Under the pieces are notes generated by a model, which saw nothing but the letters and a program-made list of their open reading frames with translations, was not told the origin of the DNA and did no database searches. A stretch of 64,000 bases of DNA from the NCBI GenBank assembly GCA_025360385.1, contig JANYCG010000164.1:1-64000 (forward strand), written 5' to 3'. Positions 19,919-64,000 of this stretch are shown here, in pieces. Source of the DNA: Burkholderiales bacterium. Its GTDB lineage: Bacteria; Pseudomonadota; Gammaproteobacteria; Burkholderiales; Burkholderiaceae_C. A program made the position numbers and the translations under genes. Positions within the stretch are counted from its first letter, which is position 1; every line of letters begins with the position of its first letter.

Positions 19919-20308
19919 TTATTTGTTTTTGTTGTAGGCATCGACACAAACGGCGGCCCGCAAAACCACGCCTTTGATGACCTGTTGCCAGTCAATGCCA
20001 ATGCCCATGATGGATATGCCATTGTTCATCACGCCCATGATGAACGCACCAATCACGGCGCCCAGCACTTTACCCACACCCCCCGATGCCGAAGCGCCGC
20101 CGATGAAGCAAGCGGCGATCACATCCAGCTCAAAACCCACACCGGCTTTGGGTGTGGCTGTGTTCAAACGGGCTGAAAAAATCAGGCCGACCAACGCAGC
20201 CAGCACACCCCTGTTGATGAAGGCATAGAAGGTTAGCCGTTCGGTTTTGACGCCTGACAGCCGAGCCGATTTTTCATTGCTGCCCAGCGCATAAATCCAA
20301 TAGGTAAT
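19919..20308 (-). pseudogene. Sugar ABC permease (GguB/XylH-type), C-terminal fragment
   Basis: Translation ends like monosaccharide ABC permeases of the GguB/XylH group: YALGSNEKSARLSGVKTERL, FELDVIAACFIGGASASGGV and GIGIDWQQVIKGVVLRAAV, stopping after YNKNK. The matching upstream part lies beyond an IS200-type element at 20309-20955, which cuts the gene between the TTI- and TYWIYALG-coding parts. The fragment has no start of its own. No ATP-binding or sugar-binding subunit gene is in the window. Confidence 0.8.
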
Positions 20309-20309
20309 C

Positions 20310-20326
20310 CCCCGGCTATGCCGGGG
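20310..20326. repeat. Left-end hairpin of the IS200-type element
   Basis: Perfect 7-bp stem CCCCGGC/GCCGGGG with a TAT loop, the expected subterminal recognition hairpin for a Y1 transposase. Confidence 0.7.
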
Positions 20327-20419
20327 TGACAGTAGAAGTTTGACATTTGCTTTGGTATGGGTGTCCATCGCAGAAACTTCCAATCGTGAGCCGCCAAGCA
20401 AACGAAAGGAAAAGACGCG

Positions 20420-20851
20420 ATGGACAAGATAGAAAGCCTAAACCACACGAAGTGGGACTGCAAGTACCACGTAGTGTTCATACCGAAGGGTCGAAGGAAA
20501 GTACTGTACGGACAATTGAGAGTGCACCTCGGAGAAGTATTTCGGGGACTGGCCCAGCACAAGGAGAGCCAGATAGAGGAAGGGCATTTGATGGCCGATC
20601 ATGTGCACATGATGATATCGATACCGCCGAAATATGCGGTGTCCAACGTAGTGGGTTACATCAAGGGGAAAAGCGCGATACACCTGGCCCGGGTGTACGG
20701 GGAGAGAAAGAGGAATTTCACGGGGCAAAGCTTCTGGGCGCGGGGGTACTTTGTCTCCACCGTAGGGAGAGACGAGGAGGTGATTCGGAACTACATCCGC
20801 AATCAGGAGCGAGAAGACGAACGCCTGGAGCAGCTGGGGCTGTGGAGATAG
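20420..20851 (+). CDS. tnpA: IS200/IS605-type Y1 transposase TnpA
   Basis: 143 residues, normal for the family. The metal-binding HUH motif is His61-Val-His63 (ADHVHMMIS), and the probable nucleophile is Tyr125 in VIRNYIRNQE. The start HTKWDCKYHVVFIPKGRRK and FWARGYFVSTVG are typical of IS200 TnpA. It catalyses strand-specific excision and insertion of single-stranded DNA during replication. No tnpB/IscB-type accessory gene accompanies it. The frame is intact, so it may still be active. Confidence 0.93.
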   Translation: MDKIESLNHTKWDCKYHVVFIPKGRRKVLYGQLRVHLGEVFRGLAQHKESQIEEGHLMADHVHMMISIPPKYAVSNVVGYIKGKSAIHLARVYGERKRNFTGQSFWARGYFVSTVGRDEEVIRNYIRNQEREDERLEQLGLWR

Positions 20852-20854
20852 GCG

Positions 20855-20922
20855 GCCACCGAGTCGGTGGCACCAAGAGTTGGGGCCGCGTTAGCGACCC
20901 CGTTTAGCCGCTTTGAGCGGCT
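20855..20922 (+). other. Three consecutive hairpins between tnpA and the IS right end
   Basis: Directly after the tnpA stop are: a 7-bp hairpin, GCCACCG/CGGTGGC with loop AGT (20855-20871); a stem GGGG-CGC/GCG-CCCC with one mismatch (20882-20901); and a 7-bp hairpin, AGCCGCT/AGCGGCT with loop TTG (20906-20922). These precede the right-end hairpin. They could be a structured 3' UTR, a transcription barrier or an element-encoded small RNA; the sequence does not decide. Confidence 0.5.
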
Positions 20923-20936
20923 CACAATATTGAAAA

Positions 20937-20955
20937 CCCCCGGCTTTGCCGGGGG
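20937..20955. repeat. Right-end hairpin of the IS200-type element
   Basis: Perfect 8-bp stem CCCCCGGC/GCCGGGGG with a TTT loop, almost identical to the left-end hairpin. Confidence 0.7.
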
Positions 20956-21345
20956 ATGGTTATTGCGCCGGCGGATCGTGGTTTGGGACGTGGCAAAGTC
21001 ATACGCCAGCATCAGCAGCAACATGACAACCAGCCCATTGGGCAGGCCCTTGTAGGACGACAATAAATAACTGAAGGCGACAATCATTGCGGCAAACGCC
21101 AGGTTTTTCACAGCGAAAAAGACAGTGGGTTCGTTGTCCATGCCATGTTTGACACGGTCAGCCCGGCTGCGTATTTTGACCACCAGCAGCGCCAGGGCCA
21201 GCAGCAGGCCGACCACCCGCGAAGTGACGCGCAGGCTCTCGCCGCCAAACGGGTCAGGTCACCAGGCAGATCAGGGTGGCCAGCACATCGTGCACCTGGT
21301 ACTCGACCATCAGCACTGCCGCCACGCCGCCAATCAAAGTCGAAA
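20956..21345 (-). pseudogene. Sugar ABC permease (GguB/XylH-type), N-terminal/middle fragment
   Basis: On the minus strand this encodes VKNLAFAAMIVAFSYLLSSY, GLPNGLVVMLLLMLAYDFAT and SQTTIRRR, up to the IS insertion point. Further upstream, LIGGVAAVLMVEYQVHDVLA appears in another frame and runs into a stop, so there is at least one frameshift besides the IS. The expected N-terminus is missing. The locus was therefore decaying independently of the IS. The remaining sequence up to 21456 shows no intact gene. Confidence 0.7.
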
Positions 21346-61035: not shown

Positions 61036-64000
61036 TCAATGGAAGTCCCGGCTCGCCGTGGCCAAACCACCCAACAGGGGTGTCAGGTCCTTAAGGCGGC
61101 GCGCCACCAGATGGCGCACCTGGCCCCCGCTTTCGGTATCACGCTGCCATTCGCCATACACCGCCATCAGGCGTGACTTGAGCAGCTCGGCGCGTTGCGT
61201 TTCGCGCAGGTTTTTCCAGACGATCACGTTGACGCTGCCGGTTTCGTCTTCGAGCGTGACAAAAACCACGCCCTTGGCGGTTTGCGGCTGCTGGCGCATG
61301 GTGACGATGCCGCAGGCCGCCACGTGTCGGCCGCTGGGCAGATCGTGCAGTTGTGCGGACGTTTGCAAGGGTTTGACAAGTTTTATTTTTGATAGCTGTC
61401 CACGCAATATGGCCAAAGGATGGCGGCGCAATGTCAACCCGGTGGCGGCGTAGTCGAAAACCACTTCTTCACCTTCGCTGGCGGCGGGCAGTTCGAGAAG
61501 CTCTTCCTCGACGGGCACCGCTTTGAACAGTGGCGGGGCAGCTTTGAGAGCCGATGCGTCCCACACTTGCTGGCGGCGGTGGCCCGACAGGGCCATGAGC
61601 GCGTCGGCGCTGGCCAGGGCTTTTAAATCGCCAGCGTCCAGACTTGCGCGCAGGGCCAGGTCTTCGGTGCTGGTGAAGGGAGATTCGGTGCGCGCTTTTG
61701 TGATGCGTGCAGCAACGCCTTGACTCAGGCCACTGACCATTCTTAAACCGAGGCGCACGACTTGCCGCCCTTCGTGGTTTTGCGTCGCCAACCCGCAATC
61801 CCATTCACTGGCCGTCACGTCCACCGGCAACACCACAACCCCATGGCGCTTGGCGTCCTGCACCAGCTGGGCGGGCGGGTAAAAACCCATGGGCTGGGAA
61901 TTGAGCAAAGCCGTCAAAAAACAGGCGGGTTCGTGGCATTTGAGCCAGCTGCTCACGTAAGCCAGTTGCGCAAAACTGGCGGCGTGGCTTTCGGGGAATC
62001 CGTATTCCCCAAAGCCCAGCATCTGCTTGAAGATGGCCTCGGAAAACTCAAGCGTGTAGCCGTTCTTGACCATCTGGCCCACCAGCCGGCCGTGAAACTT
62101 GTGCACGCCGCCTGAGCGTTTCCACGCGGCCATGGAGCGGCGCAGTTCGTCGGCCTCGCCGGGGCTGAAGTCAGCCGCCAGCATGGCGATCTCCATCACC
62201 TGTTCCTGGAAAATGGGCACGCCCAGCGTGCGGCCCAGCGCCGCTTGCAGCGCGTCGCTCGGGTACTTCACGTTCTTAGGGTCTTTGCGCGCCTTGAGGT
62301 AGGGGTGCACCATGCCGCCCTGGATCGGGCCGGGGCGCACGATGGCCACCTGGACCACCAGGTCATAAAACCGGCGCGGCCGCAGGCGCGGCAACATGCT
62401 CATCTGTGCCCGGCTCTCGATCTGGAACACGCCCACCGTGTCGGCAGCGCAGATCATGTCGTAGGTGGCCACATCTTCGCGCGGGACATCCTGCATGCGG
62501 AATTCAACGCCACGCTGCCGGCCGACGAGGTGCAGGCAGCGGCGGATGGCGCTGAGCATGCCCAGGGCCAGCACGTCCACCTTGAGCAGGCCCAAGGCAT
62601 CGAGGTCGTCCTTGTCCCACTGGATGATGGACCGGTCCGCCATGGCCGCGTTTTCCACCGGCACCAGGCGCGTGAGCTTGCCCTGCGTCAGCACAAAACC
62701 GCCCACATGCTGGCTCAGGTGGCGTGGAAAGCCCGTGATCTGCCGGGACAGCTCCAGCCACTGGCGAACCTGATGCGGGTTGGGTTGCAGCACTGAGGGT
62801 TGACCGTTCGCCCTGAGCCTGTTGAAGCCGGTCGGCCCTTCGACAGGCTCAGGGCGAACGGATAAAAGTTCGGCAAGTCGCTCTTGCAGCACCGCGTCAT
62901 CGACCACGCCGCCGTCAAACCAGTGATGGTCTTTGGCCACGGCATCCACCAGCGCGGCCTCCACACCCAATGCCATGCCCACATCGCGGATCGCGCTCCT
63001 GCTGCGGTAGGTGACCACGGCGGCGGCAATGGCGGCGCGTTCGCGGCCATATTTTGTGTAGATGTACTGGATGACTTCCTCACGCCGGTCGTGTTCAAAG
63101 TCCACATCGATGTCGGGCGGCTCGTTGCGCTCGCGGCTGATGAAGCGCGCAAACAGCAGCCGGCTGTCTGCCGGGTTCACTTCGGTGATGCCCAGGCAAT
63201 AACACACTGCAGAATTGGCTGCCGAGCCGCGCCCCTGGCACAAAATGCCCACGCTGCGGGCGAAGCGCACGATGTCAAACACGGTCAAAAAGTACATCTC
63301 GTATTTCAGCTCGGTGATCAGCGCCAGCTCGCGCTCCACCTGCTGCTGTACGGCGATGGGCGTGCCCTGTGGCAGATACCGGCCCCGTGCGCCGGCATCA
63401 GTGAAGTGCCTCAAAGTCTGGGCGGCATCCATGCCGGGCAAGATGGTTTCCACCGGGTACTGGTAACGCAGCTCGTCCAGGCTGAAGCTGCAACGGCTGG
63501 CCACGGTGAGGGTATTGGCCAGCCATTCAGCCGGGTAAATTTGCGCCAGCCGTTCGCGCGATCGCAGGTGCGCCTCGGCGTTGGGTTGCAAGCCGAAACC
63601 ACATTCAGACACTGGCACGCCCAGGCGCACCGCCGTGACCACATCTTGCAGCGGCTTGCGCGAGCGCACATGCATGTGCACATGGCCTGCGGCCACCAGC
63701 GGCACGCCGGTGTGTTGCGAGAGGTTTTGAAGCGTATGTTGCCACAAGGAATCGTCCAAACCGTGCCACAACTCCGCCAAAAGCCATAAATGGGAGCCAA
63801 ATAGGGAGAATATCCCTGTCAGAGCTGAATAGTATGCTTCATAAGTTGTAGCATTTTCAGGCAAGCTTGAAGTATCAGTTTGCTCGGCGCGCGGCAACGC
63901 CAGCAGTACTTCACAGTCTTGCAGCGCCGCCCAGTCGCTGTCTTGCCAGCTCAGCTCATAACTGCCCTTGGGGGCGGCCCGGCGTGCCGCCGTGATGAAC
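61036..64000 (-). CDS. dnaE2: Error-prone DNA polymerase DnaE2 (5' truncated by window)
   Basis: About 987 codons are visible; the frame stays open to the window edge, so the N-terminus with most of the PHP domain lies to the right. Pol III alpha-type motifs are present: GILCQGRGSAANSAVCYCLG, the catalytic PPDIDVDFEHDRREEVIQYI, the FQIESRAQMSMLPRLRPR region, GFGEYGFPESHAASFAQLAY and a C-terminal OB-fold (VVFVTLEDETGSVNVIVW). It performs SOS-induced translesion synthesis with ImuA/ImuB. Three repeats interrupt it in frame: AT-rich copies at 61381 and 63784 and a palindromic repeat at 62804. Confidence 0.95.
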   Translation of the reverse strand, partial: FITAARRAAPKGSYELSWQDSDWAALQDCEVLLALPRAEQTDTSSLPENATTYEAYYSALTGIFSLFGSHLWLLAELWHGLDDSLWQHTLQNLSQHTGVPLVAAGHVHMHVRSRKPLQDVVTAVRLGVPVSECGFGLQPNAEAHLRSRERLAQIYPAEWLANTLTVASRCSFSLDELRYQYPVETILPGMDAAQTLRHFTDAGARGRYLPQGTPIAVQQQVERELALITELKYEMYFLTVFDIVRFARSVGILCQGRGSAANSAVCYCLGITEVNPADSRLLFARFISRERNEPPDIDVDFEHDRREEVIQYIYTKYGRERAAIAAAVVTYRSRSAIRDVGMALGVEAALVDAVAKDHHWFDGGVVDDAVLQERLAELLSVRPEPVEGPTGFNRLRANGQPSVLQPNPHQVRQWLELSRQITGFPRHLSQHVGGFVLTQGKLTRLVPVENAAMADRSIIQWDKDDLDALGLLKVDVLALGMLSAIRRCLHLVGRQRGVEFRMQDVPREDVATYDMICAADTVGVFQIESRAQMSMLPRLRPRRFYDLVVQVAIVRPGPIQGGMVHPYLKARKDPKNVKYPSDALQAALGRTLGVPIFQEQVMEIAMLAADFSPGEADELRRSMAAWKRSGGVHKFHGRLVGQMVKNGYTLEFSEAIFKQMLGFGEYGFPESHAASFAQLAYVSSWLKCHEPACFLTALLNSQPMGFYPPAQLVQDAKRHGVVVLPVDVTASEWDCGLATQNHEGRQVVRLGLRMVSGLSQGVAARITKARTESPFTSTEDLALRASLDAGDLKALASADALMALSGHRRQQVWDASALKAAPPLFKAVPVEEELLELPAASEGEEVVFDYAATGLTLRRHPLAILRGQLSKIKLVKPLQTSAQLHDLPSGRHVAACGIVTMRQQPQTAKGVVFVTLEDETGSVNVIVWKNLRETQRAELLKSRLMAVYGEWQRDTESGGQVRHLVARRLKDLTPLLGGLATASRDFH
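61381..61424 (+). repeat. AT-rich dispersed repeat, copy 13 (in dnaE2, partial)
   Basis: Contains TTTTATTTTTGATAGCTGTC, CACGCAATATGGCC, which aligns with the 5' half of the family best. It lies in the region before the C-terminal OB-fold. Confidence 0.45.
62804..62861. repeat. Palindromic repeat inserted in dnaE2
   Basis: Arms of 24 bp (62804-62827 and 62838-62861) are complementary with a single mismatch, around a 10-base GC-rich loop. The arm core is TTCGCCCTGAGCCTGT. In the dnaE2 frame it encodes SVRPEPVEG and FNRLRANGQ, residues foreign to DnaE2, so it looks like a REP-like element inserted in frame. Similar CCCTGAGCCTG palindromes are familiar in beta/gammaproteobacterial genomes (from memory). 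Confidence 0.8.
63784..63855 (-). repeat. AT-rich dispersed repeat, copy 14 (in dnaE2)
   Basis: Minus-strand reading: AATGCTACAACTTATGAAGC, ATACTATTCAGCTCTGACAG, GGATATTCTCCCTATTTGG. In dnaE2 it encodes TYEAYYSALTGIFSLFG, in the same frame as copies 1, 5 and 7. Confidence 0.7.

Follow-up and report, generated by a model that had tools for sequence, protein, structure and literature searches.

A probable REPIN-like palindromic element tolerated in frame within dnaE2 of a Burkholderiales bacterium

Palindromic repeats in bacteria and the repeat at this locus

Among the palindromic repeats described in bacteria, the REPs and REPINs stand closest to the element considered here. These are dispersed, many-copy, short imperfect hairpin units of 20-40 nt that also occur as inverted pairs, and their spread is usually explained by RAYTs (TnpAREP). 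The E. coli TnpAREP is reported to require GTAG along with a mismatch bulge (PMC8266576), and canonical REPs are linked to GT[AG]G feet, atypical classes also being mentioned (PMC6006769). PMC3733652 describes 24 GTAG and 4 CGTC REP families, the CGTC REPs apparently being without a transposase, and reports intragenic REPs of families other than the present one, including copies in DnaE2, UvrA, UvrD and tRNA synthetases. The in-frame palindromes of Rickettsia (RPE), about 150 bp long, are treated in a review, PMC10969869.

The palindrome discussed here lies in a window of 64,000 nucleotides, the whole stretch of DNA that was analysed, from a Burkholderiales bacterium. Its repeat resembles REPs and REPINs in its many dispersed copies and inverted pairing, in a possible mismatch zone in the stem, and in having copies inside genes, including those for DnaE2, UvrA, UvrD and tRNA synthetases, as in PMC3733652 and PMC8266576. 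However, its foot is CCGTTC in place of GTAG or GTGG, both in the window and in the listed dimers (117 in number, where the foot follows from the search pattern, which requires CGTTCG), and, unlike the RAYT-linked REPs, it flanks no RAYT gene among 76 fetched Y1 loci. It shares with the CGTC REPs of PMC3733652 the common occurrence of dimers and alpha-proteobacterial as well as intragenic members. The CGTC REPs are reported to want a dedicated transposase, and none linked to the present repeat was found in the 76 Y1 loci. The consensus in that paper has a CGTC (TGTC, CCTC) end, A/T at stem positions 1-2 and CCA tails, whereas the present repeat has the CCGTTC foot and varying stem pairs that are mostly CC/GG; it is set apart by that paper's text description.

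Similarly, the repeat is like RPE in forming palindromes in frame in core genes, but its dimers span 48-60 bp between the outermost searched bases, as against the ~150 bp of RPE in rickettsial genes, and its listed hosts are not Rickettsia. It is like MITEs in being apparently non-autonomous with inverted ends and seems unlike them in that no clear target duplication was seen in 110 copies, and both halves appear to be hairpin units with no internal region. Judged by its letters, with no GTAG or CGTC tag and no flanked RAYT in the 76 loci, the repeat is not a canonical REP. Since intragenic REPs, including those in DnaE2, are already on record in PMC3733652, an in-frame palindrome in dnaE2 is not new in kind; the repeat differs in its foot, in the want of a flanked partner gene among the fetched loci and in being read in a single frame. 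A literature search with the sequence strings of the repeat found no paper, which is weak evidence of novelty, as repeat letters often sit in figures.

The palindrome within dnaE2

The original prediction had described a 58-base palindrome at 62804-62861 with 24-bp arms and one mismatch. The arm search bears this out, the arms 62804-62827 and 62838-62861 (24 nt each) pairing at 23 of 24 positions (96%). When 24-bp arms with at most one mismatch and a spacer of 3-30 nt were sought, this was the sole site in the 64-kb window to pass, and the same scan returned none in three simulated first-order Markov windows. The 16-mer TTCGCCCTGAGCCTGT, the arm core that had been proposed for searching, occurs without mismatch in the window in the two arms only. 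For the coding-strand RNA of the palindrome, the computed folding energy is -48.2 kcal/mol; shuffles average -20.9 (z -9.6), and 0/200 came out that low. Rfam gave eight matches at the palindrome up to E 1, all under the gathering score and mostly to microRNA models. The features are collected in Table 1.

Table 1. Coordinates of dnaE2, the palindromic element and its parts in the window
Feature	Position	Strand	Basis
dnaE2, error-prone DNA polymerase; frame open, start past the window end	61036..63999	-	Open reading frame
60 nt encoding S VRPEPVEGPTGFNRLRAN G (residues 380-399, ORF numbered from 63999)	62803..62862	-	
Whole palindromic element, two inverted units, REPIN-like	62804..62861	.	Arm search and sequence
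Left unit: foot CCGTTC, then hairpin	62804..62829	+	Compared with family dimers
10-nt spacer separating the 24-nt arms	62828..62837	.	Arm search
Right unit, canonical, CC...GG stem intact	62836..62861	-	Compared with family dimers

The palindrome adds about 20 in-frame residues to DnaE2, and the reading frame is uninterrupted on both sides. The gene stays open as had been claimed, and the translation agrees with the predicted peptide, SVRPEPVEG...FNRLRANGQ. A search of 80 family genomes yielded 30 dnaE2 loci (the window's own and 29 others), which were aligned. None of the 29 relatives has the 20-residue stretch; 27 show a clean 20-column gap, and the other two (L198 and L207) carry four unrelated residues at its position. 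The loop varies in length among the relatives, and in G001, the sole other genome of the same genus that was compared, dnaE2 lacks the stretch and has an even shorter loop. An AlphaFold2 model of 456 residues, of moderate quality (mean pLDDT 69) and used solely to tell loop from helix, places the stretch in a loop between helices 174-186 and 214-227, with residues 192-202 at pLDDT below 50. The model and the alignment agree with the predicted location in a poorly conserved loop. Conservation of the same residues in distant DnaE2 proteins, which had been named as the finding that would speak against an insertion, did not occur in the aligned relatives. The insertion is thereby read from absence in the relatives, at the level of the alignment and not of the single base.

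The dnaE2 genes of G001 (L238) and G028 (L205) have no palindrome and contain other extra stretches with GSDP-containing peptides. From these, dnaE2 seems to accept several kinds of insert.

A dispersed family of repeats

The core CTGAGCYTGTCGAAG occurs 38 times exactly in the source genome, as against none for the reversed pattern, so that the genome search suggested by the original prediction turned up a multicopy repeat; at up to two mismatches, 85 cores were found against 13 for the reversed control. With a stricter dimer pattern, at least 117 dimers in at least 116 stretches were obtained from GTDB. The hosts among the listed matches, taken from record titles, include Comamonadaceae, other Burkholderiales, Aromatoleum, Thiobacillus, Crenothrix, Sphingobium and others; they are beta-, gamma- and alphaproteobacteria other than Rickettsia. 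At least one exact core is present in 76 of 200 family genomes, single matches being near the level of the reversed control, and at least ten are present in 26. The copy number splits sharply within single genera (0 vs 222, 0 vs 84, 7 vs 142 and 0 vs 86), which looks like recent expansion and loss. The top count seen was that of Crenothrix polyspora (G005), with 420 exact cores in ~3.9 Mb, several of its copies (L038 and others) having long conserved outer flanks in common. Among plasmids, 17 records matched, 13 of them from Sphingobium, with a query coverage of at most 35%. The viral collection contained four stretches with the repeat, and viral spread was rejected.

The 117 listed dimers were reduced to 111 by dropping same-flank copies and those with a spacer below 2 nt, and to 110 by keeping those with long enough flanks. 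When the terminal C/G are left aside, the flanks match over at least 4 nt in none of the 110 copies; with the terminal C/G counted, three copies reach 4 nt and none reaches 5 or more. A clean empty site was sought in the Sphingobium plasmids and none was found, the sites being rearranged or having lost one unit, and the three genomes in the genus of G148 all share the occupied site. Two of the Sphingobium plasmid loci (L263 and L264) keep one unit at the site where others, such as L249, have the dimer, and single units may accordingly arise by the loss of one half, as this comparison of sequences suggests.

The unit within each arm

Covariation was scored in the 111 dimers. The two free bases after the foot complement the two beyond the core in 102 left and 101 right units (203/222), while within-unit shuffles, which ignore relatedness, gave means of 30.4 and 33.5 with maxima of 47 and 50. 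Ten pair types make up this complementarity, the variable stem pairs being CC/GG in 156/222 units, and at a third stem position, facing a fixed G, 159/178 units have C or T. Complementarity from arm to arm at the same positions was seen in 15/111 dimers, below the shuffle mean of 31.2. Since the pairing is within units and not between arms, the covariation shows each arm to be a predicted hairpin of its own; the constrained unit would then be the arm hairpin, and the dimer would be built like a REPIN, a pair of REPs. That so many pair types occur speaks for compensatory change having happened repeatedly.

The proposed unit would measure ~26 nt and consist of the CCGTTC foot and a small imperfect hairpin with about five stem pairs at the foot. 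Its conserved part might contain GA/GA mismatches, a single G-C pair and the loop CYTGT; the conserved GA..GA zone above the stem could represent tandem G-A mismatches. The energy model gives single units weak folds that do not surpass those of shuffles (z -0.7 to -0.8), which counts against the hairpin-unit proposal. A further CTGAGC or GCTCAG lies ~8 nt outside the foot in L077, L078, L087, L103, L119 and L149, as though the element also existed in a longer, nested version.

The left unit of the dnaE2 copy departs from the family, as its own stem is broken (CC opposite CC) and it reads TTGAAG where the family has TCGAAG. The arms of this copy pair with each other over 24 positions in place of the left unit's own stem. 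In copies with a like spacer (L080, L090 and L122), the left arm carries GG where the dnaE2 copy has CC. The GG may have been replaced in dnaE2 by CC templated from the other arm, through quasipalindrome repair, and for this reason the long perfect arms, and with them the long hairpin, look secondary.

Search for a mobiliser

The original prediction had also pointed to a RAYT-type transposase as a partner to look for, and in this it was not supported: the source genome has three Y1_Tnp matches, none of them flanked by the repeat. The same was observed on a wider scale. In 76 Y1/RAYT loci fetched from a longer list of Y1 matches (31 plus 45, with at least three places seen twice), no locus was flanked by the repeat, whether as a dimer or as a match with at most one mismatch; five rows, representing four places, had one isolated two-mismatch match each. 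RAYT-type genes (NF047646, E up to 0.001) are present in 177 of 200 family genomes, and ten or more copies of the repeat occur in 23/177 RAYT-positive and 3/23 RAYT-negative genomes (Fisher p 1.0). The presence of a RAYT does not predict expansion of the repeat. PF01797 found no match in the expanded genomes G211 (86 copies) and G119 (20), where an assembly gap may hide one or a distant relative may have escaped the search. With no flanked locus among the 76 fetched and no tie to copy number, a RAYT was not supported as the linked mobiliser of the repeat.

A GGGGTCnGA-like repeat lies anywhere in the locus at 41 of 63 Y1 loci, a count made without a background control, and GTAG-containing inverted flanks are present at L209, L210 and L212. 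Partner repeats of Y1 genes can thus be detected by inspecting the locus. On contig C320 of the source genome, a RAYT-like gene just below the NF047646 cut-off (L032, 1406-2260) sits between inverted copies of AATTAATTGGGGTCAGATTCCAATTA, a repeat other than that of the dnaE2 palindrome.

The window itself contains, at 20306-20957, an IS200-type transposase tnpA (20420-20851) with its own inverted ends, and it is unrelated to the repeat as a mobiliser. It directly follows a minus-strand ORF (19919-20401) with the C-terminal portion of a BPD_transp_2 transport permease and so probably interrupts the permease gene. The ORF beyond it (20803-21216, minus strand) had no Pfam match.

Intragenic copies and the reading frame

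By codon composition, 39 of the 111 dimers lie in a coding-like frame. All open frames extending 50 residues or more beyond a dimer on both sides, 53 in number from 43 loci, were scanned with Pfam, which confirmed 22 copies as genic, with domains on both sides of the element or spanning it. Their hosts are PutA, an AMP-binding enzyme, MmeI, three orthologous FAD/Fe-S proteins, a beta-eliminating lyase, RecJ, a methylmalonyl-CoA mutase fusion, two Tex proteins, DnaX, GcvP, a molybdopterin oxidoreductase, a carboxyltransferase, ValRS, UvrD, PurL, IleRS, a nitrite-reductase-like protein, UvrA (L140) and a pyridine-nucleotide oxidoreductase. L119, which has the same frame, was excluded, as one side matches GIY-YIG and the other MeaB, which are unrelated, and L097 (UvrA), with listed domains on one side only, was counted in the length classes (23 copies) and not among the 22.

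All 22 confirmed copies, and the dnaE2 copy as well, are read as VRxExVEx, one of two open frames. For the second, PFxLSLSK, the Pfam support is one-sided (L065 and L130), as it is for seven more copies in the VR frame (L039, L074, L102, L110, L127, L129 and L133). One site is common to the three FAD proteins and another to the two Tex proteins, leaving at most 19 independent sites; 19/19 against an even split gives p = 4e-6 by arithmetic, assuming equal chances of insertion into the two open phases. The lengths of intragenic copies are also filtered: modulo 3 (classes 0, 2 and 1), they number 16, 7 and 0 in the 23 genic copies against 25, 26 and 36 in the remaining 87. This latter set comprises non-coding as well as unconfirmed sites and includes related copies. 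The dnaE2 copy belongs to class 1, which is empty in the other 23.

Six of the products, including DnaE2, act in replication or repair (RecJ, DnaX, UvrD, UvrA and the second UvrA, L097; Tex and MmeI are left out of the count). Long genes are simply bigger targets, and this is a plain tally. Copies of the repeat are spread over many genes unrelated to one another and over non-coding DNA, the stretches with the repeat in G205 and G186 being mostly non-coding. In three orthologous FAD/Fe-S genes (L048, L099 and L121), the copies share a site and have their GG/CC stems exchanged, as if the element had been inverted or re-inserted. In a Tex gene (L103), tandem repeats with PSVRPEP and ARTVAGP units are present at the element, from which it appears that the insertion of a copy can give rise to tandem repeats in coding sequence.

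Origin of the palindrome

The palindrome in dnaE2 probably represents a mobile, non-autonomous element of REPIN-like build, which consists of two inverted ~26-nt units and is tolerated in the gene as a passenger. This is in line with the REP-like element in frame in dnaE2 that had been predicted, as the repeat forms a multicopy, dispersed family of paired hairpin units and the palindrome is absent from the relatives. A nuclease or transposase supplied in trans would recognise the units in single-stranded hairpin form, and copies of the dimer would go to new sites. In dnaE2, the element would have entered a flexible linker. It would owe its persistence there to the open frame and the tolerance of the loop, and not to any service to the gene.

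A REP family in the usual sense, moved in trans by a resident RAYT or by one since lost, would treat the absent GTAG tag as a mere variant, and the REP-like build and size of the repeat, as well as the wide presence of RAYT-type genes in the family, agree with it. However, such an origin is unlikely: the 76 fetched Y1 loci are not flanked by the repeat and many carry the GGGGTCnGA-like one somewhere in the locus, expansion is spread evenly over genomes with and without RAYT-type genes, and G211 and G119 are expanded with no PF01797 match. Far less plausible is a selected regulator, in which the hairpin in the dnaE2 mRNA slows ribosomes or stabilises the RNA and so tunes the error-prone polymerase. 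The very stable RNA fold is what one would expect of it, but the palindrome is absent from DnaE2 relatives, and arm-to-arm pairing is not what the family conserves. With the arm's own hairpin as the apparently constrained unit and the same repeat present in unrelated genes and non-coding DNA, the covariation of the family points away from a selected long hairpin, and a function of the palindrome in dnaE2 is unlikely. That the palindrome arose by chance or from an assembly join is hardly credible; the loop does vary in length among relatives and the source assembly consists of 337 contigs, yet both arms match the repeat on contigs of many organisms and the dnaE2 frame continues on both sides.

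A broader proposal is put forward tentatively, namely that the REPIN-like copy in dnaE2 represents an undescribed palindromic mobile family that lacks its own transposase and is spread in beta-, gamma- and alphaproteobacteria. Where such a family persists in genes, it would do so in one coding phase, adding VR(P/A)E(P/L)VE(G/A), repeatedly in replication, repair and tRNA-charging enzymes. If true, the one-phase rule would stem either from the specificity of insertion or from strong selection on the peptide.

A widespread and unevenly expanded REP-like family without the tag or a linked RAYT raises the question of what else moves such hairpins. Furthermore, its single-frame copies in large enzymes form a natural set of tolerated peptide insertions, and they allow a clear test between insertion bias and selection.
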